This document shows, in pieces, positions 16,716-30,670 of a DNA stretch of 64,000 nucleotides. The stretch lies in contig JAFRPL010000007.1 in the NCBI GenBank assembly GCA_017429165.1, forward strand, positions 62,001 to 126,000, read 5' to 3'. The stretch is from Clostridia bacterium (GTDB taxonomy: Bacteria > Bacillota > Clostridia > Oscillospirales > CAG-382). A model generated the notes under the pieces. The model was not told where the DNA came from. It ran no database searches and saw only the letters and a program-made list of their open reading frames with translations. Position 1 is the stretch's first letter. Every line of letters starts with the position of its first letter. A program made the translations under genes and the position numbers.

Positions 16716-16744
16716 ATAATATCACACGAAACGCCTTTTGTCAA
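16716..16744 (-). promoter_or_regulatory. promoter of infC-rpmI-rplT
   Basis: Minus strand TTGACA (16744-16739), 17 bp, TATTAT (16721-16716). It gives a leader of about 200 nt. Confidence 0.88.
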
Positions 16745-16818
16745 GCGCTTTTTCAAAAAAAATATCACGTTTTTGCCTGTTTTTGAATAGAATTTATAAG
16801 AGAAAGGGTGTTTTTGCC

Positions 16819-17568
16819 ATGCCAACAGTATATCTGAGTCCTTCAACGCAGGAATACAACGAATATTACGACAAAAGCGGCAGCGAAGAATACTATATGA
16901 ACCTCATCGCGGACGCGATGGTCCCGCTGCTCGAACAGCGCGGGATAACCGTCAACCGCAATTCGCCCAATATGACCGCGAGCCAGTCGGCGGCTCAGTC
17001 GGCGTCGGGGGAAAACGGTCTGCATCTCGCCATCCATTCCAACGCCGCCGGCGTCGGCAACGCGGGCAACGTGCGCGGCGTGGACGTCTATCACTATACT
17101 CCGTCCCGCGAAGGAAAGCGCGCCGCCGAGATCATTGCGCGCAACATGCGGAACATATATCCCGACCCGGCGCTGGTGCGGGTGCTGGGCAACACCACGT
17201 TCGTGGAACTGCGCCGCACAAAAGCGCCCGCGGTGCTTATTGAAGTGGGCTACCACGACAATCCGGCGGACGCGGAATGGATAAAAGCCAACATAGACGC
17301 AATAGCCGGCGAGCTGGCCGACGCCGCGGCGGAATTCCTTGGCGCGGGCGATACGGTCCCGCCTTCCGGCTGCGCCGAACAGGCGACGGTCGATACCGGA
17401 GGCAGCCGCCTCAACTTACGGAATGCGCCTTCGTTCGACGGCGAGATAATCGGCAAACTGCCGGATGGCACCGCGGTGGGCGTGATCCGGCGCGAAGGCG
17501 CGTGGACGTACGTGGACCATTACGGCAAAAAAGGCTACGTTTATTCGCAGTACCTTACTTTGGACTGA
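16819..17568 (+). CDS. N-acetylmuramoyl-L-alanine amidase with C-terminal SH3 domain
   Basis: A 249-residue zinc amidase of the Amidase_3 type: residues about 1-180 with HLAIHSNA and VLIEVGYHDNPADAEW (catalytic Glu), although the first zinc ligands (usually a His in xxDPGHGG) are replaced by MPTVYLSPSTQEYNEY. Residues about 190-249 are a bacterial SH3 domain (LNLRNAPS, GTAVGVIRREGAWTYV) that binds cell wall. There is no signal peptide, as in phage endolysins and some spore enzymes. The ribosome site (AAAGGG) is 11 nt upstream of ATG 16819. It is a single gene, divergent from infC, with a terminator at 17579-17610. Confidence 0.85.
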   Translation: MPTVYLSPSTQEYNEYYDKSGSEEYYMNLIADAMVPLLEQRGITVNRNSPNMTASQSAAQSASGENGLHLAIHSNAAGVGNAGNVRGVDVYHYTPSREGKRAAEIIARNMRNIYPDPALVRVLGNTTFVELRRTKAPAVLIEVGYHDNPADAEWIKANIDAIAGELADAAAEFLGAGDTVPPSGCAEQATVDTGGSRLNLRNAPSFDGEIIGKLPDGTAVGVIRREGAWTYVDHYGKKGYVYSQYLTLD

Positions 17569-17621: not shown

Positions 17622-19427
17622 TTATTTCGCCTTTTTGACAACGACCGCGCCGGCGCATGCGAGCGCAGCGACTACAGCGAATACGGCGATGCCTGCGTCG
17701 CCGCTTGCGGGAGTGTTCTTCTTGACTATGACGACCGCGGAATCTTTATCGAATTCCACAGTGCCCTGATAATTAAGTATCCTGCCGGTGACTTTGATCT
17801 TGTCGCCGACTTCGATATCGGCCGCGTCGTCGCCGACGACACGGTACGCTTTGACAGTCTTACCGCCGACTTCGAACAGTACGGTGATGTTGCCGAACTT
17901 ATCCTGATACTTTTCGACTATCTTAGTGACCTTGCCGGTGAGCGAATAGGTGCCTTCGAGCGATTCGCCTTCTGCGAGCGCGAACGCGGCGGCGAGGATA
18001 TCTTTTTCGGTTTCGGGTTTCTGTGCGGAAGTTTCGGGTTCGGAAATTTCGGAAGGATCGGCTTTTTCTATGATCTGCGCGGTGCAGCCGGAGATGAATT
18101 CAACGGTCCCGTTATAATTCTTGAGCACGCCGGTGACAGCGATCTTATCGCCTTTGCCGACTTCGCCGTAGCTCTGAGCTTCCATTTTGAAGCAGAGGAT
18201 CTCTTTGTCGGCGACAGTCATTTTGACCTGATTGTCTTTTTCGAGCTTTTCGGTCACGGTGCCGGTAAGCGTGTAAGTGCCGGGGAGTATTTCGCCCTTG
18301 GGAAGCGCGAAAGCGGCGGTGAGGATCTCCTGTTCCGTCTTGGGCTGCGCGGGAGGAGTGCCTTTTTTGACCGTGGTGAAAGAGGCGCCCTTGTCGAATT
18401 CGACGGTGCCATTGTAGTTCTTGATGGTGCCGGTGACGGCGATGGTGTCGTTGATGCCGACGGTGGCGGCGTCTTCGCCTTTCATAAGATAGCACTGGAT
18501 GATCTTTTCCGCGCCGTCGTTGCCTTTGACTTTCATGTTGACGGAAACGTCTTTTTCGGTCTCGTTATACGGATTCACCATGCCGGAAACCACGCCGGTG
18601 AGGGTCTTGGTGCCGTTCAGCGATTCGCCTTTACCGAGCGCGAAAGCGGCGTCGACGATATCGGCTTCGGTCTCGTCCTCGGGCTGGCTCGCGGGCTCGG
18701 AGGATTCTTCGCCGGAGCTTTCTTCGCTCTGCGCTTTTTCGACGATGACGGCGGTGTTGCCGCTGTCGAATTCGACGGTGCCGTTATAGTTCTTGATGGA
18801 ACCCGTGACGGTGATCTTGTCGCCCACGCCTATTTCGGCGTAGTTTTCCGAATTCATTCTGTAGCAAAGTATATCTTTGCCGCCCACGGTAAAGTGGACC
18901 TGGCTGTTGCTGTCGGTCTTTGAAGTGACGATGCCGGTGAGCGAATAAGTCCCGGCGAGCGCGGTGTTGACGTCGAGCGCGAACGCGGCGGCGAGGATCT
19001 CTTCTTCTGTCTCGGGCGGCTTCTGCTCTTCGCCTTTCGCGATCGTCACGAAAGTACAGTTGGCATCGAATTCTATAAGATCCTTGCTGCCGTCTACGTA
19101 ATGCTTGATAATGCCGGTGACTCTGATGGTGTCGCCGACGCCCACCGTAGCGGCGTCTTCGCCTTGCATACGGTAGCACTGGATCACTTTATCTTCGCCG
19201 GCGCTGTTTTTGACGGTGATATTGACCGTTACGTTCTTATACTGAGAATTATACGGCGTGACAATGGCTTTGACCACACCGGTGAGAGTCTTACTGCCGC
19301 TGAGCGACTGCCCGGCTGCAAGCTCAAATGCCGCGTCGACTATCTCTTCCTCTTCGCCGGCGGATACGGTCATGACACAGGCGATCAGCAATACCGCGAC
19401 GAGCGCGAGACTGACAAGTTTTTTCAT
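17622..19427 (-). CDS. surface protein with five OB-like repeats
   Basis: A 601-residue exported protein. Residues 1-24 are a signal peptide (cleavage after TVSA is possible; a lipobox-like LIAC at 14-17 is the alternative). Five repeats of about 90-105 residues follow at roughly 29-131, 143-231, 257-355, 368-455 and 477-570. Each starts with (I/V)(V/L)xAAFxL, has LTGxV, a CYRM-like strand, VGDxIxVTG and ends NYNGTVEFD. This pattern looks like an OB fold. The linker at 232-256 is Ser/Glu-rich. The C-terminus (NTPASGDAG, hydrophobic stretch 578-597, KKAK) resembles a degenerate sortase or membrane anchor. Role unknown. Start ATG has AAGGAG 9 nt upstream; own promoter at 19482-19510. Confidence 0.78.
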   Translation of the reverse strand: MKKLVSLALVAVLLIACVMTVSAGEEEEIVDAAFELAAGQSLSGSKTLTGVVKAIVTPYNSQYKNVTVNITVKNSAGEDKVIQCYRMQGEDAATVGVGDTIRVTGIIKHYVDGSKDLIEFDANCTFVTIAKGEEQKPPETEEEILAAAFALDVNTALAGTYSLTGIVTSKTDSNSQVHFTVGGKDILCYRMNSENYAEIGVGDKITVTGSIKNYNGTVEFDSGNTAVIVEKAQSEESSGEESSEPASQPEDETEADIVDAAFALGKGESLNGTKTLTGVVSGMVNPYNETEKDVSVNMKVKGNDGAEKIIQCYLMKGEDAATVGINDTIAVTGTIKNYNGTVEFDKGASFTTVKKGTPPAQPKTEQEILTAAFALPKGEILPGTYTLTGTVTEKLEKDNQVKMTVADKEILCFKMEAQSYGEVGKGDKIAVTGVLKNYNGTVEFISGCTAQIIEKADPSEISEPETSAQKPETEKDILAAAFALAEGESLEGTYSLTGKVTKIVEKYQDKFGNITVLFEVGGKTVKAYRVVGDDAADIEVGDKIKVTGRILNYQGTVEFDKDSAVVIVKKNTPASGDAGIAVFAVVAALACAGAVVVKKAK

Positions 19428-19711: not shown

Positions 19712-20191
19712 ATGGCACTTACCAAAGCTCAGATCGAACAGAAAACCAAAGAACTGCGCGAGTTCATCGCAGACCACAAGGACGTTCAGGGTCCGCTTAT
19801 GCCCATAATGCAGAAAGCTCAGGAGCTTTTCGGCTACCTTTCGTTCGAGACACAGACTCTCATAGCCGATTCGCTGGGGATCCCCGTTTCGGAAGTATAC
19901 GGCGTGGCAACTTTCTACGCGCAGTTTTCGCTTCAGCCCAAAGGCGACCACGTCATAAGCGTGTGCACCGGCACTGCCTGCTACGTCAACGGCGCGCAGG
20001 CGATCCTTGAAGAAGTAGAAAAACAGCTGGGCATTTCCGCCGGCGAAACCACCTCCGACGGCAAGTTTTCCATTCAGGATACGCGCTGCCTGGGCTGCTG
20101 CGGTCTCGCTCCCGTAATGGTCATCAACGGCGACGTTTACGGCCGCCTTGTTCCCGCCGACATAAAAGGCATACTCGAAAAGTACAAATAA
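19712..20191 (+). CDS. hydC: hydrogenase subunit, NuoE/HydC-like [2Fe-2S] protein
   Basis: Thioredoxin-fold [2Fe-2S] subunit of NADH-linked hydrogenases, homologous to NuoE of complex I. The 159 residues are the usual length. Four cluster Cys are visible: C85 and C90 (VCTGTACYVNG) and C126 and C130 (RCLGCCGLAP). The helical N-terminus ends in GVATFYAQF. AAGGAGG lies 8 nt upstream of the ATG. It is the first gene of the operon and would pass electrons between the NADH site in HydB and the hydrogenase subunit. It is separated from hydB and hydA by six regulatory-type genes. Confidence 0.93.
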   Translation: MALTKAQIEQKTKELREFIADHKDVQGPLMPIMQKAQELFGYLSFETQTLIADSLGIPVSEVYGVATFYAQFSLQPKGDHVISVCTGTACYVNGAQAILEEVEKQLGISAGETTSDGKFSIQDTRCLGCCGLAPVMVINGDVYGRLVPADIKGILEKYK

Positions 20192-20225: not shown

Positions 20226-20573
20226 ATGAAAATATCCGAAGTAGCAAAAGTCTTGGACGCGCGCATACTCTGCTGCGCCGAAAACGCCGACAAAGAAGTC
20301 TGTTCCGCCTGCGGAAGCGACATGATGAGCGACGTGCTCGCATACGTCAAAAATCAGGCCGTGCTTCTTACCGGGCTGGTGAACCCGCAGGTGATACGCA
20401 CCGCCGAAATGATGGATATGGTATGCATCGTCTTCGTGCGCAGCAAGGACCCTTCAAACGATATGCTAAAGCTCGCCGAACGCGCCGGCATAGTCGTCAT
20501 GAGATCCGAACACCGTATGTACGAAGCGTGCGGACTGCTTTACAGCAACGGCCTGAACGGTAAAGTGATATGA
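20226..20573 (+). CDS. DRTGG-domain protein (first copy)
   Basis: A 115-residue protein of the DRTGG type: MKISEVAKVLDARILCC, CSACGSDMMSDVLAYVKN, LLTGLVNPQVIRTAEM. DRTGG domains sit next to CBS domains or phosphotransacetylase-type proteins and are thought to bind a small ligand, perhaps a nucleotide; no mechanism is proven. The ribosome site is weak (AAAGG, 12 nt). Its stop overlaps the next gene (ATGA), so it is coupled to the ATPase-like protein. A paralogue lies at 22302; both flank the H-cluster-type sensor-like gene. Several Cys (C16, C17, C27, C30) could make it redox-responsive, which is my inference. Confidence 0.8.
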   Translation: MKISEVAKVLDARILCCAENADKEVCSACGSDMMSDVLAYVKNQAVLLTGLVNPQVIRTAEMMDMVCIVFVRSKDPSNDMLKLAERAGIVVMRSEHRMYEACGLLYSNGLNGKVI

Positions 20574-21001
20574 GCGAACAGAACGAATGCCTTACATACT
20601 CGTTTGAAGTCGACGGCGAAAACTTCACCTCTGCGGGCGAAGCCTCGGTCCAGGTGAAACGCATACTGCGCCGCATAGGATTCGACCCGGAAACGATCAA
20701 ACGCGTTTCCATCGCCATGTACGAAGGCGAGATCAATATGGTCATACACGCCGGCGGCGGAGTGGCGGAGCTTTTCGTTTACGAAGACAAAATAGTCATG
20801 AAACTGACAGACCACGGCCCCGGCATAGCCGACGTTTCGCTCGCGATGCAGGAGGGCTTTTCTACCGCGCCCGACAATATCCGTTCGCTGGGGTTCGGCG
20901 CCGGTATGGGTCTGCCGAACATGAAACGCTACACCGACGAAATGGTAATAGACACCAAGCTCGGAGAAGGAACCACCATAACAATGACTGTGAACGTCTG
21001 A
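20570..21001 (+). CDS. GHKL ATPase-domain protein, RsbW-like (first copy)
   Basis: 143 residues that consist only of a HATPase_c domain, like anti-sigma factor kinases. The N box is EGEINMVIHAGGG (Asn 56), the G1 box DHGPGIAD (Asp 81) and the G2 region LGFGAGMGLPNM. No dimerisation or phosphoacceptor His domain is present, so it is not a classical histidine kinase. Overlaps the preceding DRTGG gene by 4 nt. In the RsbW family such proteins phosphorylate an antagonist Ser or bind a sigma factor; no partner of that kind is visible in the window. A role in signalling with the neighbouring sensor-like protein is inferred from the tight operon. Confidence 0.85.
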   Translation: MSEQNECLTYSFEVDGENFTSAGEASVQVKRILRRIGFDPETIKRVSIAMYEGEINMVIHAGGGVAELFVYEDKIVMKLTDHGPGIADVSLAMQEGFSTAPDNIRSLGFGAGMGLPNMKRYTDEMVIDTKLGEGTTITMTVNV

Positions 21002-21031
21002 TATCCGTTTTGCAGTCCGAAAGGGATTCTG

Positions 21032-22315
21032 ATGTCTGAATACAAACACTCCGTCTCGCTTGATCTGGAAAAATGCAAGGGCTGTACCCACTGCCTGCGC
21101 AGATGCCCGACCGAAGCGATTAGAATACGCGACGGCCACGCGGTTATAGACCCCGCGCGGTGCATAGATTGCGGCGAATGCATTCGCCTTTGCCCGCACA
21201 AGGCCAAAAAAGCGATCTACGACAAATTCTCGTCGCTCCCCAAAGACAAATACCTCATAGCGCTGCCTGCGCCCACTTTTTACGGCCAGTTCGAAAATCT
21301 CGACGATATCGATTACCTGCTTCAGGGACTTCTGGATCTGGGGTTCGACGACGTTTTCGAAGTCGCCTGCGCGGCGGAGCTCGTGACAGATTACACCCGC
21401 AAATTCCTGCATTCCGGCAAGGCGATCTCCCCCGTGATAAGTTCGGCGTGCCCCGTGGTGGTTCGTCTGGTGACGCTGCGGTTCCCCACGCTGGTGCCGC
21501 ATCTGCTGCCGATACAGCCGCCTGTCGAACTCGCCGGCCGGCTCGCACGGCAGAAAGCCAAAGCCAAGAACCCTTCGCTCAAAGACGAAGACATAGTCAC
21601 CGTTTTCATTTCGCCGTGCCCCGCAAAAGTCAGTTACGTCAAAAACAGCTCCGACGGCGGAAAAAGCAGCATAGATTACGTCGTTTCCATAAGCGATATG
21701 TATTTCGAACTGCTGAACGTTATGAAGAATAAGGTCACCCCCGTTCCCTATTCCAAGACCGGCATGGTCGGCATAGGGTGGGCGATATCGGGCGGCGAAT
21801 CCTCGTCGCTGATGAACGACCATTATCTCGCCGCGGACGGCATTGAAAACGTTATAAAAGTACTTGAAGATATAGACACCGAACAGCACCCGAATCTGGA
21901 TTTCGTGGAGCTGAACGCCTGCAGCGGCGGCTGCGTGGGCGGAGTCCTTACCATGGAAAACCCGTATATCTGCCGTGTAAGACTGCGCAACATACGGCGC
22001 TACCTGCCCGTTTCGCAGAACCACGCTTCCGAAGGAGACGACCTGCCCGATTACGTCAAGCTGGATCTCGATTCGGAGTACGAAGCCGTTTCCAAACTTG
22101 GCACGTCGCGCCGCCACGCCATAAAGCTTATGGCGGATATCCAGAGCGTGTTCAGCACGCTGCCCGAGCTCGACTGCGGTTCGTGCGGTTCGCCGACCTG
22201 CCGCGCTTTTGCCGAAGACGTAGTCAAAGGCAAGGCCGATTACGGCGAATGCATAGCGGTGATGCGCGAAAAGCTGCGCGAAAAAACAAACGGAGAAAAA
22301 AATGACGGTAAATGA
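21032..22315 (+). CDS. H-cluster-type [FeFe] hydrogenase-like protein, probably sensory
   Basis: A 427-residue iron-sulfur protein. Residues 15-54 hold two ferredoxin [4Fe-4S] motifs (CKGCTHCLRRC and CIDCGECIRLC). Residues about 75-340 are a hydrogenase large-subunit domain in which the H-cluster Cys are kept at C140 (SSACPVV), C196 (ISPCPAK), C297 and C301 (ACSGGC). The Cys that relays protons in catalytic enzymes (first Cys of TSCCP) is Ala 139, and the L2 and L3 motifs are also relaxed. Residues 382-407 form a further [4Fe-4S] motif (CGSCGSPTCRAF...C). This pattern fits the putative sensory hydrogenases, not a main catalyst. Unlike some of those it has no PAS domain. It lies 30 nt after the ATPase-like gene and overlaps the second DRTGG gene by 14 nt. 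Confidence 0.88.
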   Translation: MSEYKHSVSLDLEKCKGCTHCLRRCPTEAIRIRDGHAVIDPARCIDCGECIRLCPHKAKKAIYDKFSSLPKDKYLIALPAPTFYGQFENLDDIDYLLQGLLDLGFDDVFEVACAAELVTDYTRKFLHSGKAISPVISSACPVVVRLVTLRFPTLVPHLLPIQPPVELAGRLARQKAKAKNPSLKDEDIVTVFISPCPAKVSYVKNSSDGGKSSIDYVVSISDMYFELLNVMKNKVTPVPYSKTGMVGIGWAISGGESSSLMNDHYLAADGIENVIKVLEDIDTEQHPNLDFVELNACSGGCVGGVLTMENPYICRVRLRNIRRYLPVSQNHASEGDDLPDYVKLDLDSEYEAVSKLGTSRRHAIKLMADIQSVFSTLPELDCGSCGSPTCRAFAEDVVKGKADYGECIAVMREKLREKTNGEKNDGK

Positions 22316-22628
22316 ACTCGCCGAAAAATTAGGTCTTGAACGCGTCTTCGTCGCCGAACCGGACCGCATTATAGAAGGCGCATACGCCGGCGACCTGCTG
22401 AGCTGGGTGATGGGAAGAGCCAAGCCCGGCAACTGCTGGGTGACCATAATGACCAACGTCAACACGCTGGCGGTGGCGTCGCTTCTGGATCTTTCGTGCA
22501 TAATCATCTGCGAAAATTCCGAAATAGGCGCCGAGCTTTCCGACGCGGCGAGCGCCAAAGGGCTGAACCTTCTGCGCACCGGAATGAACGAATTCGAAGC
22601 GTGCGCGGCGCTGAGCAGACTTTTATGA
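22302..22628 (+). CDS. DRTGG-domain protein (second copy)
   Basis: 108 residues, MTVNELAEKLGLERVFVAEP, GAYAGDLLSWVMGRAKPGN, IIICENSEIG, TGMNEFEACAALSRLL. It is a diverged paralogue of the protein at 20226, sharing the xxGxxxSDxLxxV(M/K) pattern and the final E(A)CxxLxxxL. The start ATG lies 14 nt inside the sensor-like gene with GGAG upstream; the stop overlaps the PHP gene (ATGA). Probable ligand-binding module. Confidence 0.78.
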   Translation: MTVNELAEKLGLERVFVAEPDRIIEGAYAGDLLSWVMGRAKPGNCWVTIMTNVNTLAVASLLDLSCIIICENSEIGAELSDAASAKGLNLLRTGMNEFEACAALSRLL

Positions 22629-23365
22629 ACAGGTATTATTACGACATGCACATACATTCGTGCCTTTCCCCCTGCGCCGACGACGATATGACGGTCAACA
22701 ACATAGCCGGCATGGCGGCGTTAAAAGGGCTGGGCGTCATTGCGCTCACCGACCACAATTCCTGCGCCAACTGCCCCGCTTTTTTCAAAGCGTGCAGGCG
22801 CTGCGGCGTGGTCCCCGTCGCGGGGATGGAACTGACCACCGCGGAAGAAGTGCATCTGCTGTGCCTCTTCCCCACGCTCGAGACGGCGATGGAGTTCGAC
22901 GGTGAATTCAAACAGTACCGCGTAAAAATAAAAAACCGCACCGAAATATTCGGCAACCAGCTCGTGCTCGACGAAGACGACAACGTTATTTCCGAAGAAG
23001 AATTCCTGCTGCCGCCCGCGTCGTCGCTGACGCTTGAAGAAGCGGCGGAAAAAGTGCGGTCGAGCGGCGGAGTTTGTCTGCCCGCGCACATAGACAGGCC
23101 TTCCAACGGGCTGATCGGAGTGCTGGGCGATTTCCCCGAAAAACCGCGTTTTGGGTTCGTTGAGCTTTCGGCGAACGCATACGGCGGCGAATACGCCGTC
23201 GCCCTGCCAGACATAAGCGCATACGGCGTTGTTAAAAACAGCGACGCCCACCATCTGTGGGAAATAAGCGAAGCCGAAAATTACGTTACGCTCGACGACG
23301 AGCCGTACAGCGGCGACCTTATAAGGCGGCGCCTCTTTGAATACCTGAAAGGAGAAAAAGCTTGA
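22625..23365 (+). CDS. PHP-domain metal-dependent phosphoesterase
   Basis: 246 residues. The PHP metal ligands are all visible: DMHIHS (His 9, His 11), LTDHNS (Asp 43, His 44), GMEL (Glu 69), EVHLL (His 77), PAHIDR (His) and NSDAHH (Asp, His). So it should be active as a phosphoesterase; the substrate could be a nucleotide or an oligonucleotide, as for other small PHP proteins. ATG 22625 overlaps the preceding stop. The gene lies between the second DRTGG gene and the second ATPase-like gene. Its place suggests that it makes or removes a small phosphate signal, but that is inference. Confidence 0.88.
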   Translation: MNRYYYDMHIHSCLSPCADDDMTVNNIAGMAALKGLGVIALTDHNSCANCPAFFKACRRCGVVPVAGMELTTAEEVHLLCLFPTLETAMEFDGEFKQYRVKIKNRTEIFGNQLVLDEDDNVISEEEFLLPPASSLTLEEAAEKVRSSGGVCLPAHIDRPSNGLIGVLGDFPEKPRFGFVELSANAYGGEYAVALPDISAYGVVKNSDAHHLWEISEAENYVTLDDEPYSGDLIRRRLFEYLKGEKA

Positions 23366-23922
23366 AAGAGCTTTCGCTTAACATACTGGACATAGTTCAG
23401 AACTCGCTTGCGGCGGGCGCTTCGCACATAGCGGTCGACATCGCCGAGACCGGCGATACTCTGCGCATAACCGTGACCGACGACGGCTGCGGTATGGACG
23501 AAACGACGGTGCGCAATGTGACGAATCCGTTTTATACCACGCGCAAGACGCGTTCCGTGGGGCTGGGGATACCGTTCTTCAAGCTCGCCGCGGAACAGAC
23601 CGGCGGCGACCTTACGCTAAGAAGCACGCCCGCCGGCGAAAGCGACGACCACGGCACCGTTATAAGCGCGCTGTTTTACAAAACGAGCATAGATTTCACT
23701 CCGTTAGGCGACGTCTCCTCCACGCTGTGCACGCTCGTCCAGGGCCTGCCCGACGGCACCGACATAACGTTCACCCATTCCCTTCCCGGCGGAACGATAT
23801 CGTTGGACACCGCCGAGATGCGCGCGGTGCTGTGCGGAGTACCGCTTTCCACGCCCGACGTGATAGTCTTTATAAAAGACGACCTGGCGGCTCAGTACGC
23901 CGAGGCGCGGGCTTTGAAATAA
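23362..23922 (+). CDS. GHKL ATPase-domain protein (second copy), TTG start
   Basis: 186 residues starting at TTG 23362, which overlaps the PHP stop (TTGA) and has AAAGGAG 7 nt upstream. The N box is LDIVQNSLAAGAS, G1 DDGCGMDE and G2 RSVGLGIPFFK, so residues 1-115 are a HATPase_c domain. The remaining 70 residues are a small domain I do not recognise. The N-terminus (ELSLNILDIVQNSLAAGA) is like that of the ATP-binding half of sensor kinases, without the His-containing dimer domain. Not closely similar to the first copy at 20570. Last of six genes between hydC and the 2Fe-2S gene. Confidence 0.82.
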   Translation: MKELSLNILDIVQNSLAAGASHIAVDIAETGDTLRITVTDDGCGMDETTVRNVTNPFYTTRKTRSVGLGIPFFKLAAEQTGGDLTLRSTPAGESDDHGTVISALFYKTSIDFTPLGDVSSTLCTLVQGLPDGTDITFTHSLPGGTISLDTAEMRAVLCGVPLSTPDVIVFIKDDLAAQYAEARALK

Positions 23923-23971: not shown

Positions 23972-24343
23972 ATGAAATCATTGGAAGAACTTGCTAAAAT
24001 CAGAGAACGCATGGCGGGCAAAGTTGCTTTGCGCGAAGGCGAAAACTCCATACGCATAGTTGTGGGTATGGCGACCTGCGGCATAGCCGCCGGTGCGAGA
24101 CCGGTGCTCAACGCTTTAGTCGAAGAAGTGGCTAAGCAGGGCGTTTCGGACAAAGCCACCGTTTCGCAGACCGGCTGCATAGGCATATGCCAGTATGAAC
24201 CGGTAGTAGAGGTCTTCGAGCCCGGCAAAGAAAAGACCACATACGTCAAAATGACTCCCGAAAAAGCCGTAAGAGTCGTGGCGGAACACATCAAGGGCGG
24301 CAAACCCGTCGTTGAATACACCATCGGCAACACGATAATATAA
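23972..24343 (+). CDS. thioredoxin-fold (2Fe-2S) protein of the hydrogenase complex
   Basis: 123 residues, resembling HndB and the (2Fe-2S) ferredoxin-like subunits of NAD(P)-linked hydrogenases: GMATCGIAAGARPVLNAL and SQTGCIGICQYEPVVEV. Only three Cys are in the expected ligand regions (C36, C69, C73), so it may bind an incomplete or modified cluster or only have a structural role. GAAAGGA lies 11-12 nt upstream. Placed directly before hydB, 16 nt apart. Confidence 0.88.
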   Translation: MKSLEELAKIRERMAGKVALREGENSIRIVVGMATCGIAAGARPVLNALVEEVAKQGVSDKATVSQTGCIGICQYEPVVEVFEPGKEKTTYVKMTPEKAVRVVAEHIKGGKPVVEYTIGNTII

Positions 24344-24359
24344 AACGGAGGATATATTT

Positions 24360-26159
24360 ATGATACGTGCTCATGTTCTTATCTGCGGCGGCACCGGCTG
24401 TACCTCGTCCAACAGCCCCGCTATTGCGAAAGCGCTTGAAGCAGAGCTCGAAGCCAAAGGGCTTCAGGACGAGATAAAGATCGTCCACACCGGCTGTTTC
24501 GGCCTTTGCGCGCTCGGTCCCATTATGATCGTTTACCCCGAAGGTATCTTCTATTCCAGAGTGAAAGTCGAAGACGTGCCCGAGATAGTCGAAGAGCATT
24601 TGCTCAAAGGACGTCCCGTCCAACGTCTGGTATACAGCGACCCCGCCAAGAACGCGATCGTCAGCGGCGACATAACCTCGCTTTCCGAAACGCGCTTCTA
24701 TAAGAGCCAGAAACGCGTTGCGCTGCGCAACTGCGGCGTTATAGATCCCGAAAATATCGACGAATACATCGCCATGCACGGCTACGAAGCGCTGGGCAAG
24801 GCGCTCACCGAAATGACGCCCGACGACGTCATAAAAGAGATACTCGATTCCGGCCTGCGCGGAAGAGGCGGCGGCGGATTCCCCACCGGCAGAAAATGGC
24901 AGTTCGCCAAAGCTTCGGTTTCGGATAAAAAATACGTCGTCTGCAACGCCGACGAAGGCGACCCCGGCGCGTTCATGGACCGTTCCGTGCTCGAAGGCGA
25001 CCCCCACGCGGTGCTCGAAGCCATGGCTATCGCCGGCTACGCAATAGGCGCCGACGAAGGCTACATCTACGTGCGCGCCGAATACCCCATAGCGGTCGCG
25101 CGTCTGCAGATCGCCATCAAGCAGGCGCATGAATACGGCCTGCTGGGAAAAGACATATTCGGTACCGGTTTCAACTTTGATATCAAGCTCCGTCTCGGCG
25201 CCGGCGCGTTCGTCTGCGGCGAAGAGACCGCGCTGCTCACCTCCATAGAAGGCAACCGCGGCGAACCCAGGCCCCGTCCTCCGTTCCCCGCTGTCAAAGG
25301 TCTGTTCGGCCAGCCCACCATCATAAACAACGTCGAAACGTTCGCCAACGTGGCGCAGATCATCCTCAACGGCGCCAAATGGTTCGCTTCCATGGGCACC
25401 GAAAAATCCAAAGGCACCAAGATCTTCGCGCTCGGCGGCAAGATCACACACACCGGACTCGTCGAGATCCCCATGGGCACCACGCTCCGCACCATCATCG
25501 AAGAGATCGGCGGCGGCTGCCCCAACGGCAAGAAATTCAAAGCCGTGCAGACCGGCGGTCCTTCCGGCGGATGCATACCCGCTTCGCTCATCGACACCCC
25601 CGTCGATTACGACACGCTCACCGCAATGGGCTGCATGATGGGTTCCGGCGGTATGATAGTAATGGACGAAGACAACTGCATGGTCGATATAGCCAAGTTC
25701 TTCCTGGGCTTCATAGTCGACGAATCCTGCGGTAAATGCACTCCCTGCCGCATAGGCACCAGAAGGATGCTCGACATCCTCACCCGCATCACCGAAGGCA
25801 AGGGTCAGGACGGCGATATCGAACGCCTCGAAGAGCTCGCCAACACCATCAAGGCGACCGCGCTCTGCGGACTCGGCCAGACCGCGCCCAACCCCGTACT
25901 CGCCACCATCAAATTCTTCCGTGACGAATACGAAGCTCATATTTACGAAAAACGCTGCCCCGCCGGCCACTGCAAAGCGCTTGCGAGATACACCATCGAT
26001 CCCGAAAAGTGCAAGGGCTGCTCCGCGTGCTCCAGAAAATGCCCCGTCAACGCCATCAGCGGCGTAGTCAAGTCCCCGTTCGTGATCGATCAGAACAAAT
26101 GCATCAAGTGCGGCACCTGCCTGGAAACCTGCAAGTTCGGCGCCATAAGCAAGAAATAA
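24360..26159 (+). CDS. hydB: NADH-binding hydrogenase subunit, NuoF/HydB-like
   Basis: The NAD(H)-oxidising flavoprotein subunit. 599 residues: N-terminal thioredoxin-fold [2Fe-2S] (C9, C14, C46, C50); NuoF core with FMN/NADH loop LRGRGGGGFPTGRKW (about 165-180) and NADEGDPGAFMDR; SLBB-like part; [4Fe-4S] site SCGKCTPCRIGT plus a later Cys (LCGLGQT); and a C-terminal pair of ferredoxin motifs (CKGCSACSRKCP and CIKCGTCLETC). This domain order is that of electron-bifurcating HydB. GGAGG lies 7-9 nt upstream. With HydA and HydC it would use NADH plus reduced ferredoxin to make H2. Confidence 0.96.
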   Translation: MIRAHVLICGGTGCTSSNSPAIAKALEAELEAKGLQDEIKIVHTGCFGLCALGPIMIVYPEGIFYSRVKVEDVPEIVEEHLLKGRPVQRLVYSDPAKNAIVSGDITSLSETRFYKSQKRVALRNCGVIDPENIDEYIAMHGYEALGKALTEMTPDDVIKEILDSGLRGRGGGGFPTGRKWQFAKASVSDKKYVVCNADEGDPGAFMDRSVLEGDPHAVLEAMAIAGYAIGADEGYIYVRAEYPIAVARLQIAIKQAHEYGLLGKDIFGTGFNFDIKLRLGAGAFVCGEETALLTSIEGNRGEPRPRPPFPAVKGLFGQPTIINNVETFANVAQIILNGAKWFASMGTEKSKGTKIFALGGKITHTGLVEIPMGTTLRTIIEEIGGGCPNGKKFKAVQTGGPSGGCIPASLIDTPVDYDTLTAMGCMMGSGGMIVMDEDNCMVDIAKFFLGFIVDESCGKCTPCRIGTRRMLDILTRITEGKGQDGDIERLEELANTIKATALCGLGQTAPNPVLATIKFFRDEYEAHIYEKRCPAGHCKALARYTIDPEKCKGCSACSRKCPVNAISGVVKSPFVIDQNKCIKCGTCLETCKFGAISKK

Positions 26160-26172
26160 GGGAGGAACGAAA

Positions 26173-27912
26173 ATGAATAAAGTTAATCTTACAATAGACG
26201 GCGTAAAGGTTTGCGTTCCCGCTGACTATACCGTACTCGAAGCCGCCCGCGAAGCCAACGTCAACATCCCCACGCTGTGCTATCTCAAAGACGTACAGCA
26301 GATCGGCGCTTGCCGTATATGCCTCGTTGAAGGCGGCGGACGCGGACTTCAGGCGGCGTGCGTGCTCCCCGTTGCCGAAGGTATGGATATAAAGACCAAC
26401 ACTCCCAAGATCCGTGCCGCGAGAAAGATCAATCTGGAACTGCTCCTTTCCAACCATAACCGCGAATGCACCAGCTGCATTCGCAACCGCAACTGCGAAC
26501 TTCAGCAGCTGTGCAACGAATACGACGTCGACGGATATCCTTTCGATTCCGGCAAGCTTCCCGAATCGAACGTCGACGACATCTCGCCTTCCATAGTCCG
26601 CGACAACAGCAAGTGCATACTCTGCCGCCGCTGCGTGGCGACCTGCAACAACGTTCAGCAGATCGGCGCCATAGGCGTTTCCAAGCGCGGTATGAAGAGC
26701 GTCGTAGGCGTTGTTTACGGCAAATCGCTCGCCGATTCGCCCTGCATCAACTGCGGCCAGTGCATAGTCGCCTGCCCGACCGGCGCTCTGCACGAAAAAG
26801 ATTCCACCAAAGAAGTCTGGGCGGCGCTCGCCGATCCCGATCTCCACGTCGTGGTACAGCCCGCTCCCGCGGTACGCGCCGCGCTGGGCGAAGAATTCGG
26901 AATGCCCGTAGGCACTTCGGTCACCGGCAAGCTCGCGGCTTCTCTGCGCAGACTCGGCTTTGACAAAGTGTTCGACACCGATTTCGCAGCCGACGTCACA
27001 ATAATGGAAGAAGGCACCGAATTCATCAACCGCCTCACGAACAACGGAGTGCTTCCTCTGATCACTTCCTGCTCGCCCGGCTGGATCAAATACTGCGAGA
27101 CCTTCTACCCCGAATTCCTGCCCAACCTTTCCACCTGCAAATCCCCGCACGAAATGGGCGGTGCGCTCATAAAATCTTATTACGCCGAAAAGAACGGCAT
27201 AGACCCCAAGAAGATATTCACCGTTTCCGTAATGCCCTGCACCGCAAAGAAATTCGAAGCCAAGCGCGAAGAACTCGGCAATAACGGCCTTCAGGACGTC
27301 GATGCGGTCATCACTACCAGAGAACTGGCGCGTATGATCCGCACCGCGGGCATCGACTTCAACCATCTGCCCGACGAAGATTTCGACGACCTCATGGGCG
27401 AATCCACCGGCGCTGCCGTTATATTCGGCGCCACCGGCGGCGTTATGGAAGCCGCGCTCCGCACCGTCTATGAAGTAGTCACCGGCAAAGAGCTCGAAAA
27501 AGTCGATTTCAAAGCCGTTCGCGGCACCAAAGGGATCAAGGAAGCCACCATCGACGTGGGCGGCAGAAAAGTCCGCGTGGCGGTCGCCAACGGCACCGGC
27601 AACGCGAGCAAACTGCTCGAAAAAGTCAAGGCCGGCGCAAAGTATGACTTTATCGAAGTCATGGGCTGCCCGGGCGGCTGCGTGACCGGCGGCGGTCAGC
27701 CGATAATCAATTCCAAGGATCTGTGCTATATCGACGCAAAAGCGCTCAGAGCAAAGGCGCTTTATACCGAAGACAAGAACAAGGGACTGCGCAAATCCCA
27801 CGAGAATCCCGAAGTCAAAAAGCTTTACAAAGATTATCTCGGCAAGCCCAACGGACACAAGGCGCACGAACTGCTCCACACGCATTACGTGCCCAGACCC
27901 AAATACAAATAA
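26173..27912 (+). CDS. hydA: NADH-dependent [FeFe] hydrogenase catalytic subunit
   Basis: 579 residues with the full modular set: N-terminal [2Fe-2S] (C36, C47, C50, C63); His-Cys cluster (H95, C99, C102, C108); two [4Fe-4S] (C148-C158 and C191-C201); the H-domain with L1 ITSCSPGW (C300, Ser 301), L2 MPCTAKK (C355) and L3 MGCPGGCVTGGG (C499, C503); and a small-subunit-type tail (CYIDAKALRAKALY). Ser 301 stands where many enzymes have a second Cys. It is 13 nt after hydB with GGGAGG upstream. This is the main H2-producing subunit. Confidence 0.97.
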   Translation: MNKVNLTIDGVKVCVPADYTVLEAAREANVNIPTLCYLKDVQQIGACRICLVEGGGRGLQAACVLPVAEGMDIKTNTPKIRAARKINLELLLSNHNRECTSCIRNRNCELQQLCNEYDVDGYPFDSGKLPESNVDDISPSIVRDNSKCILCRRCVATCNNVQQIGAIGVSKRGMKSVVGVVYGKSLADSPCINCGQCIVACPTGALHEKDSTKEVWAALADPDLHVVVQPAPAVRAALGEEFGMPVGTSVTGKLAASLRRLGFDKVFDTDFAADVTIMEEGTEFINRLTNNGVLPLITSCSPGWIKYCETFYPEFLPNLSTCKSPHEMGGALIKSYYAEKNGIDPKKIFTVSVMPCTAKKFEAKREELGNNGLQDVDAVITTRELARMIRTAGIDFNHLPDEDFDDLMGESTGAAVIFGATGGVMEAALRTVYEVVTGKELEKVDFKAVRGTKGIKEATIDVGGRKVRVAVANGTGNASKLLEKVKAGAKYDFIEVMGCPGGCVTGGGQPIINSKDLCYIDAKALRAKALYTEDKNKGLRKSHENPEVKKLYKDYLGKPNGHKAHELLHTHYVPRPKYK

Positions 27913-28884: not shown

Positions 28885-30651
28885 TTATATCAGCGTGAGC
28901 AGTTCGGTGTTGAGCTTGACGAACTCCTCGGTCTCTTCGGGAGTGAACCGGCGCGAAAGCATAAGCGCCGACATATAGATCTGTTTTGCCGCGAGCTTGC
29001 GGCGCGCGTCGTCGAGTTCCGGAAGCCGCGCGACCGCTTTTGAAGAAGTGTTGACGGTGAGCGTTTCGTCGGGAGCGCCGCTTTCGCCCAGCCCGTACAT
29101 ACGCATCATCTCACGCATACGGCGCATCTCCTCGCTGACGGTGATTACCGCTGGAGCAGAATCTTCGCCTAAAGACGCGAATTTGATATCCTCGGGCTTT
29201 TTGCCCGAAACTTCGGCGAAAAGGCTTGCGAGCGTCTCGTCGTTTTCGGCGGCGTCGCCCAGCGCTTCCACGCCGGAATCTATGCGGCGGAATTTGACTT
29301 TTTCGTTTTTGCTTTCCAAAAACTGCATAAACTGCGTGTCGACCATGCGCGGCGCTTCGACCACTTTTATCCCTTTGGCGTTGTAGGCGGAAATATAATA
29401 GCTCTGGGTTTCTTTTTCGGCGGTATAATAGACCGTGCCTTCGTCCTTGCCTTCGAGATATTCGCCCGCGGTCACGAGCTTGCCGTCGGTCAGGCGGAAC
29501 ATTATCGTGTCCTTGACGCGGTCGTAGAACTTTTCGTCGCGCATACAGCCGTAGCGCAGGAACAGCGAAAGATCGGCGTAATTCTTTTCGAGCTCTTCCC
29601 TTTCGGTATTGAACAGCTGAACGAAACGGTCGGCGACCTTTTTGGAAATATGCTGCGAGACCTTGTTCACGTAGGTGTTGGTCTGCAGATAACTTCTGGA
29701 AACGTTGAGCGGCAGTTCGGGACAGTCGAGCACGCCCTTGACGTAGATAAGGTAGTTTGGCAGGACTTCTTTGATGCTTTCCGAAACGAAGACCTGGTTG
29801 TAATACAGGCTGACCTTCGGCTCGACGGGTTCAAATTCGTTCTTGACGCGCGGGAAGAAAAGTATCCCTTTGAAATTGAGCGGATAATCGGCGTTGATAT
29901 GGACGTACATCAGCGGCGCTTCGTAATCGCCCGTGAGCTTTTTGTAGAATTCGTCGTACTGTTCTTTGGTGCAGTCCTTGGGGTTCCTCTGCCAGAGCGG
30001 ATCGGTGTCGTTGATCTGCTCGCTTTTACCGTCTTCTTCAAAAAAGACCGGCACGGGCATAAAAGCGCAGTATTTCTTGAGTATCGATTTGATCTTTTCG
30101 CAATCGAGATACGAAGTCTCGTCTTCGGAAATATGCATGATGACGTCGGTACCGCGCTCGGCGCGTTCGCATTCCGACATTTCGTATTCGCCGTTTTCGT
30201 CGCACACCCAGCGGACGGCGGGCGAGCCGTCGTACGACCTGGTGACGATCTCGGCCTTTTGCGAGACCATGAACACCGAATAGAACCCCAAGCCGAAATG
30301 GCCTATGATGCCCGACGAATTGCCGTCTTTGGATTCGTATTTGTCGATGAATTCCAAAGCGCCGGAAAGCGCGATCTGGTTGATGTAGCGCTTCACTTCG
30401 TCGGCGGTCATGCCTATGCCGTTATCCGAAACGGCGAGCGTGCCGGCGTCTTTGTCGAGCGAGACGGTGATCTTGTATTCGCCGCCGGATTCGCATTCGC
30501 CCAGCGATACCAGCCGTTTTAGCTTGGTGACCGCGTCGCAGGAATTGGAGACCACTTCGCGCAGGAAAATATCCTTATCGGAATACAGCCAGCGTTTTAT
30601 GACCGGAAAAATGTTTTGTGTGCTGACGGATATACCGCCTTTTTCTTGCAT
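28885..30651 (-). CDS. htpG: molecular chaperone HtpG (Hsp90)
   Basis: Bacterial Hsp90, an ATP-dependent chaperone. 588 residues: GHKL ATPase N-domain with REVVSNSCDAVTKLKRL, VSDNGIGMT and GHFGLGFYSVF; middle domain with LYYNQVFVSESIKEVLPNY, CPELPLNVSRSYLQ; a short C-domain. ATG 30651 has GAAGGA 6 nt upstream; the in-frame TTG at 30669 has no ribosome site. It is slightly shorter than most homologues (about 620). No promoter is visible between it and the hairpin at 30684-30708, so it may be transcribed from prfB through that hairpin. Confidence 0.97.
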   Translation of the reverse strand: MQEKGGISVSTQNIFPVIKRWLYSDKDIFLREVVSNSCDAVTKLKRLVSLGECESGGEYKITVSLDKDAGTLAVSDNGIGMTADEVKRYINQIALSGALEFIDKYESKDGNSSGIIGHFGLGFYSVFMVSQKAEIVTRSYDGSPAVRWVCDENGEYEMSECERAERGTDVIMHISEDETSYLDCEKIKSILKKYCAFMPVPVFFEEDGKSEQINDTDPLWQRNPKDCTKEQYDEFYKKLTGDYEAPLMYVHINADYPLNFKGILFFPRVKNEFEPVEPKVSLYYNQVFVSESIKEVLPNYLIYVKGVLDCPELPLNVSRSYLQTNTYVNKVSQHISKKVADRFVQLFNTEREELEKNYADLSLFLRYGCMRDEKFYDRVKDTIMFRLTDGKLVTAGEYLEGKDEGTVYYTAEKETQSYYISAYNAKGIKVVEAPRMVDTQFMQFLESKNEKVKFRRIDSGVEALGDAAENDETLASLFAEVSGKKPEDIKFASLGEDSAPAVITVSEEMRRMREMMRMYGLGESGAPDETLTVNTSSKAVARLPELDDARRKLAAKQIYMSALMLSRRFTPEETEEFVKLNTELLTLI

Positions 30652-30670
30652 AACTATTCCTTCTTTCAAA

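Follow-up and report, generated by a model that had tools for sequence, protein, structure and literature searches.

Known sensory hydrogenase systems and the locus studied

Group D (M2e) [FeFe]-hydrogenases, here HydS, are putative sensory proteins whose genes have been known beside bifurcating hydrogenases since about 2010. Tables in PMC3561251 and PMC3608648, citing Calusinska 2010, place them upstream of bifurcating hydrogenases, from which a kinase-like gene separates them, and the locus numbers given there would fit the order HydS-d-p-C-G-t-B-A. The biochemistry of TamHydS from Thermoanaerobacter mathranii fits a low-turnover sensor (PMC8163306, PMC13104023). The absence of a PAS domain from group D is remarked on in PMC8163306, where the route of signal transmission is posed as a question; the signal output of these PAS-less hydrogenases is thus a question raised in the TamHydS papers themselves. 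Here we describe a group D locus in the genome of a Clostridia bacterium (Oscillospirales; CAG-382; assembly GCA_017429165.1), located in a 64,000-nucleotide stretch of contig JAFRPL010000007.1 (positions 62,001 to 126,000, hereafter ‘the window’). Six genes, encoding DRTGG1, GHKL1, HydS, DRTGG2, PHP and GHKL2, lie there inside the operon of an NADH/ferredoxin-linked hydrogenase, HydABC. Comparative analysis suggests new boundaries for this block – a five-gene module plus GHKL2 – and names candidate partners for HydS. In the open-licence literature, a restricted body of papers whose silence does not prove absence, we found neither genetic work on group D nor any study of the DRTGG/PHP part of the locus.

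Several features of the window HydS point to TamHydS as its closest described counterpart. The protein has two N-terminal [4Fe-4S] motifs, an H-domain with the loops SSACP, SPCPAK and NACSGGC, and a C-terminal [4Fe-4S] domain (PF04060 at residues 377-408) with a Cx2Cx4Cx16C motif; a domain search found no PAS domain. The cluster cysteines C140, C196, C297 and C301 are invariant among homologues, which have SS[AS]CP and [STA]PC loops and, in those read, the Cx2Cx4Cx16C motif. The proton-relay cysteine (C299) is replaced by alanine and M353 by serine. Because these two positions are changed while the four cluster cysteines are kept, the C-terminal motif is present and PAS is missing, we assign the window HydS on sequence to group D (M2e), the putative sensory [FeFe]-hydrogenases of the TamHydS kind; the group D signature was present in every homologue read. 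TamHydS has the same domain order, the same C299 loss, M353 to serine change and Cx2Cx4Cx16C motif, likewise lacks PAS, and its gene, too, adjoins those of a bifurcating hydrogenase and a kinase-like protein. Six of the eight charged group D residues (R30, R32, K35, K58, D378, E392, D393 and D403, per PMC13104023) are kept in the window protein as R31, R33, K59, D381, E395 and D396, whereas K35 is histidine and D403 is glutamate; the two proteins also differ at the M497 position (leucine in TamHydS, asparagine here). The M2e genes Cthe_0335, Athe_1292 and Cphy_3798 (PMC3561251) are further kin. TamHydS-type loci carry the cassette upstream of the hydrogenase operon, whereas the window has five genes inside it, in a genus without detected HydE, HydF and HydG.

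Group C HydS/HfsB systems (T. maritima, R. albus and Thermoanaerobacterium hfsABCD) resemble the cassette in that a low-turnover sensor-type hydrogenase is encoded with its presumed target, and there is genetic evidence of regulation for their Hfs relatives (PMC5707799, PMC11837493). Unlike the cassette, they combine a PAS domain with a SpoIIE-type phosphatase and lack DRTGG, GHKL1 and PHP genes, within the window family as elsewhere. At the window locus HydS has no PAS domain and no adjacent SpoIIE phosphatase; in this family both are found at distinct group C loci. Those loci (L122-L135) often include a further hydrogenase of ~480 amino acids and have no adjacent cassette genes.

A five-gene unit and a GHKL ATPase that stays with the hydrogenase operon

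The earlier note on this sequence described six same-strand genes between hydC and hydB/hydA, with stop-start overlaps at four of five joints. Open reading frame and domain searches confirmed the genes and their named domains, and the coordinates confirmed overlaps of 4, 14, 4 and 4 nucleotides, with a 30-nucleotide gap between GHKL1 and HydS. The idea that all six were inserted together held for five of them; it did not hold for GHKL2, normally part of a hydC-GHKL2-hydD-hydB-hydA operon.

The neighbourhood search that the note had proposed for DRTGG, H-cluster protein and PHP recovered a near-invariant unit. Across 60 wide loci that sample many families of the class, the DRTGG-GHKL1-HydS-DRTGG-PHP genes were adjacent and co-directional in 56, a recurrence well in excess of chance. 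Of the four exceptions, two were cut by contig ends, one (G099) lacked PHP, and one (G072) had PHP beside GHKL2 and hydB. In a set of 80 named loci (genome_contigs) the five genes were complete in 77, the remaining three being cut. GHKL2, in turn, sits after hydC and before hydD-hydB-hydA where the cassette is upstream (dgSdp-CGtBA), divergent (L063, L067) or distant. The conserved module is therefore the five genes DRTGG1-GHKL1-HydS-DRTGG2-PHP, and GHKL2 is by position a member of the hydrogenase operon. In the window family, the five genes lie between hydC and GHKL2.

This insertion state falls mainly in two separate clades of a HydS tree (90 rows, FastTree, modest support), the window's and that of L073, L075, L106, L118 and L119, and the module thus appears to have entered between hydC and GHKL2 at least twice independently. 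No convincing gene fusion that would reveal contacts between members was seen in 121 loci.

Metagenome-assembled genomes that carry the labels Atopobiaceae or Coriobacteriales (Actinomycetota) also contain close copies of the cassette (L196, L198, L200, L202 and L215), some of which adjoin a second hydrogenase operon. These copies would be explained by horizontal transfer or by mis-binning.

Co-occurrence with HydB and rnf-linked loci

We compared 40 genomes carrying a group D HydS with 40 lacking one (80 in all, mostly complete), counting HydB as present at ≥ 900 bits. The cassette PHP was found in 39/40 genomes with HydS and 0/40 without (p 8e-22), HydB in 40/40 and 9/40 (p 4e-14), and GHKL2 in 40/40 and 4/40. 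Among the 49 genomes with HydB, all 40 with the cassette carried GHKL2 compared with 4 of the 9 lacking it (p about 7e-5), which indicates that GHKL2 depends on both HydB and the cassette.

This companionship persists where the loci are unlinked, and so is not mere adjacency. HydS and hydB are far apart in G340, G087 and G121; in the complete genome G340 they lie near 0.61 Mb and 2.76 Mb, a separation of about 2.1 Mb. The cassette is an obligate companion of hydB; the earlier note's reading thus survived its own criterion for refutation, a lack of co-conservation with hydABC in other genomes. At two loci (L101 and L105) the cassette and GHKL2 are followed by rnfC and further rnf genes, confirmed by NCBIfam, instead of hydABC. 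Judged by position, the partner of GHKL2 would be a HydB- or RnfC-type NADH-binding subunit.

Predicted properties of the cassette partners

The two ATPases appear to be of different kinds. In GHKL1 the N-box (E52-x3-N56), DxGPGI and GxGMG (GFGAGMGLPN) motifs are invariant among homologues, and its nearest solved structures are those of SpoIIAB, the anti-sigma F factor (4e-11); against the SpoIIAB model it scores 54 bits, far under the equivalog cut-off of 135. By sequence, then, GHKL1 is SpoIIAB/RsbW-like with an intact kinase site. It shares fold, size and catalytic motifs with SpoIIAB/RsbW anti-sigma kinases, which differ in being encoded with a STAS antagonist and a sigma factor; the cassette locus has neither. 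GHKL2 (186 amino acids, HATPase domain from residue 8) had no HisKA match and no histidine-bearing dimerisation domain in a domain search or in its AlphaFold model (predicted local distance difference test score, pLDDT, 92). The model matches the ATPase domains of MutL/PMS2 and of histidine kinases at template modelling (TM) scores of about 0.4-0.55. GHKL2 is not a histidine kinase, since it has no dimerisation and phosphotransfer domain bearing a phospho-accepting histidine. The earlier description of both ATPases as kinase or partner-switch proteins accordingly fits GHKL1 and is not supported for GHKL2, an operon gene without the histidine domain. A defence-system reading was dropped after PADLOC returned trivial GHKL matches only.

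The DRTGG proteins are, from their profiles, paralogues: DRTGG2 falls under the Pfam cut-off (18.7 versus 25.2 bits) and matches DRTGG1 in a profile comparison (HHalign probability 99.5). The AlphaFold model of DRTGG1 (pLDDT 90) matches AF1212 (TM 0.83), a pyrophosphatase DRTGG domain and HPr kinase 1ko7 (TM 0.67), and these best matches, the last to the HPr-kinase N-domain, did not support the suggestion that the DRTGG proteins bind a small ligand. The predicted fold is like that of the DRTGG domains of CBS-pyrophosphatases and the N-domain of HPr kinase/phosphatase; unlike those, the cassette DRTGGs are stand-alone proteins, present as a paralogous pair, and carry no CBS, pyrophosphatase or kinase domain. 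Conservation in DRTGG1 is concentrated in T49-G-L and, above all, in a flexible loop, D32-x-M-S-D36, which is also the least confidently modelled inner part. By the ratio of nonsynonymous to synonymous substitution rates (dN/dS), DRTGG2 evolves fastest of the set (0.14-0.28), and HydS, GHKL1 and DRTGG1 are tightly constrained (0.03-0.10).

The metal-site residues of PHP (H9, H11, H44, E69, H77, H155, D207 and H209) are conserved among homologues, and by sequence its nearest structures are EndoQ and Rnm-type enzymes. Of the proposal that PHP removes a phosphate signal, the intact metal ligands are observed; phosphate removal itself is putative.

Apparent absence of the hydrogenase maturases

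HydE and HydG were not found in the window genome (G000) or in the three remaining genomes of the genus (G045-G047), and none of these four genomes had a HydF above the cut-off of 325.55, the best match scoring about 96 bits, the level of other GTPases. Same-family relatives have all three maturases at 520-930 bits. In 70 genomes chosen for carrying a group D HydS or this HydB, 13 had no HydG above cut-off, and one of them, the single-contig G125, also had no HydE. Some acetogens are reported to lack HydG while retaining HydE and HydF (PMC9431212).

Decay of HydA was ruled out as the cause. Genomes that have HydG and genomes that lack it show similar H-cluster loops in HydA (TSCSPGW, MPCTAKK and EVMGCPGGC), and comparison of genus members gives a dN/dS of 0.05-0.09 for both HydS and HydA – strong purifying selection. 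As a separate observation, the first loop was TSCSPGW in all HydA read (40 loci), with or without HydG, placing serine at the position expected for C300, a cluster ligand in CpI.

Three explanations suggest themselves for the missing maturases: a different maturation route, proteins that function in the absence of the [2Fe] subcluster, or maturases so divergent that the models miss them. The window genus and some complete clostridial genomes would, on the first two options, keep HydABC and the HydS module without HydE or HydG (and HydF where tested) either by obtaining [2Fe] through some novel route or by using both proteins without it; we regard this as a possibility somewhat on the unlikely side. 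Were both proteins to work without [2Fe], HydS would be a ferredoxin or redox sensor and HydABC an NADH:ferredoxin oxidoreductase, not H2 devices. The apparent absence of HydEFG in part of the group calls into question whether a conserved [FeFe]-hydrogenase operon always handles H2, as has been assumed.

A tentative phospho-switch and its alternatives

The block is probably regulatory. Our preferred reading, held tentatively and at a little under even confidence, is of a conserved signalling module around HydS, dedicated to HydABC and acting as a redox or H2 phospho-switch. It draws on the five-gene unit and the obligate association of that unit with hydB, and on the intact ATP/kinase residues of GHKL1 and the intact PHP metal ligands; the related group C system (HydS-PAS with SpoIIE phosphatase), which has genetic backing as a regulator, lends further support. 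In such a switch, the Fe-S chain of HydS would register H2 or the state of reduced ferredoxin, and the resulting conformational change would pass to GHKL1. GHKL1 might then phosphorylate a protein target: perhaps the DRTGG1/DRTGG2 pair, a candidate for its HPr-kinase-like loop with invariant serine and aspartate, or a Hyd subunit. PHP would take the phosphate off, and GHKL2 would relay the result to HydABC, coupling the state of the switch to HydB. The output is more likely to act on the complex, or on its NADH-binding subunit, than on transcription, because GHKL2 is the sole member that stays beside hydB (or rnfC), and because the cassette has no conserved neighbour encoding a transcription factor or response regulator, nor, across about 60 neighbourhoods, one encoding a sigma factor, STAS or PP2C protein. 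With a near-invariant unit and a GHKL2 gene that stays with hydB, candidate partners can therefore be named – the SpoIIAB-like kinase, the DRTGG pair, PHP and GHKL2 – and the question of group D signal output becomes directly testable.

A number of points weigh against this reading. The C-terminal cluster of TamHydS shows no response to H2 (PMC13104023), and H2 sensing by HydS is doubtful in the window organism because HydEFG was not found in its genus; of the earlier proposal of the H-cluster protein as an H2 sensor, membership of a putative sensory group stands and H2 as the signal is in doubt. For none of the cassette members is an interaction, a phosphorylation or a phosphatase activity known, and the phosphorylation targets named above are guesses. 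PHP is lost in G099 and relocated to hydB in G072. Correlations in a mirror-tree analysis of 33 loci were weak, with GHKL2 tracking the core slightly more than hydABC, so the analysis did not set GHKL2 apart from the core as gene position does. The two class-wide loci with the cassette beside rnf qualify the dedication to HydABC. Finally, STAS proteins are encoded elsewhere in 40/40 cassette genomes, making a classical partner switch possible; a lack of STAS proteins in these genomes was for that reason dropped as an argument against one.

Such a partner switch, which we consider unlikely, would have GHKL1 act as an RsbW-like kinase and anti-sigma factor with an unlinked STAS protein, so that HydS tunes hyd transcription to H2. 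The closeness of GHKL1 to SpoIIAB structures, the presence of STAS proteins in all 40 cassette genomes, the SpoIIE-type phosphatase of the group C counterpart and the altered adhE transcription after hfsB deletion all speak for it. The lack of any conserved STAS, PP2C or sigma gene near the cassette tells against it, and the scheme leaves DRTGG and PHP without a role.

A role in assembly or quality control, in which the ATPases and the PHP enzyme would help to assemble, activate or repair HydABC or RnfC-type subunits and would not signal, is in our view quite unlikely. In its favour, GHKL2 is similar both to MutL/Hsp90-type ATPases and to kinases and stays beside hydB or, in two loci, rnfC, and the cassette is kept where HydEFG was not found. 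Yet 9 genomes have the same type of hydB without a cassette, GHKL1 is of a small signalling kinase type, and the active-site changes of HydS are those of a sensor.

A role for HydS as an additional electron-transfer or catalytic subunit within HydABC, the other genes being accessory, is improbable. The Fe-S clusters and H-domain of HydS and its co-encoding with hydABC would suit such a role, but the cassette is often distant from hydABC and always with its own partners, and HydS lacks the proton-transfer cysteine. The solved HydABC complexes are not known to contain such a subunit, which also counts against this explanation.

Genomic hitch-hiking is strongly disfavoured: operon clustering alone can conserve neighbours and the loci are mostly linked, but PHP (39/40 versus 0/40) and HydB (40/40 versus 9/40) accompany HydS even when unlinked, insertion recurred independently at the same site, and the genes are under purifying selection.

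Gene content of the locus

The coordinates of the operon and of the two rnf-linked cassettes are collected in Table 1. GHKL2 starts with TTG, preceded by AAAGGAG. The window genome (2.16 Mb in 37 contigs, 97.8% complete) encodes two H-cluster proteins only, HydA and HydS.

Table 1. Genes of the window locus (window positions) and rnf-linked cassettes (positions in their own loci).
Feature	Position	Strand	Evidence
HydC, NuoE-type [2Fe-2S] subunit, first hydrogenase-operon gene	19712..20191	+	PF01257 3e-53; hydC-GHKL2-hydD-hydB-hydA in relatives
DRTGG1, core cassette gene 1	20226..20573	+	PF07085 3.8e-7; AlphaFold model; conservation
GHKL1, core gene 2, SpoIIAB/RsbW-type ATPase	20570..21001	+	TIGR01925 1.3e-14; SpoIIAB structures 4e-11
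HydS, group D (M2e) putative sensory [FeFe]-hydrogenase	21032..22315	+	Fer4; PF02906 1e-33, PF04060 3e-13
DRTGG2, core gene 4, divergent DRTGG1 paralogue	22302..22628	+	HHalign versus DRTGG1, probability 99.5
PHP phosphoesterase, core gene 5	22625..23365	+	PF02811 1e-10; invariant metal-site residues
GHKL2, stand-alone histidine kinase/MutL-like ATPase, small C-terminal domain	23362..23922	+	PF02518 7e-15
hydD-like thioredoxin-fold [2Fe-2S] protein	23972..24343	+	PF01257 1e-5; conserved position
HydB, NuoF-type flavoprotein subunit	24360..26159	+	PF01512, PF10589
HydA, catalytic subunit, NADH-dependent/bifurcating group A type	26173..27912	+	NF040763 1e-277; H-cluster loops
rnf-linked cassettes	L101:1933-7745 (rnf order C-D-G-E-A-B); L105:6702-12536		

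No Rfam match to an RNA element was obtained within the operon, and an internal terminator splitting it was ruled out, terminator-like sites being fewer than in shuffles and on the opposite strand only. Promoter-scan matches barely exceeded shuffles and were not used as evidence.

Nearby, an amidase gene (16738-17568) adjoins one for a 601-amino-acid predicted secreted protein (17622-19427, minus strand) with several ~90-amino-acid repeats of the pattern LTGTVT...ITVTGxIKNYNGTVEFD. Close downstream of the hydrogenase operon, and convergent with it, a HtpG/Hsp90-like open reading frame (28885-30669, minus strand) encodes another GHKL ATPase.

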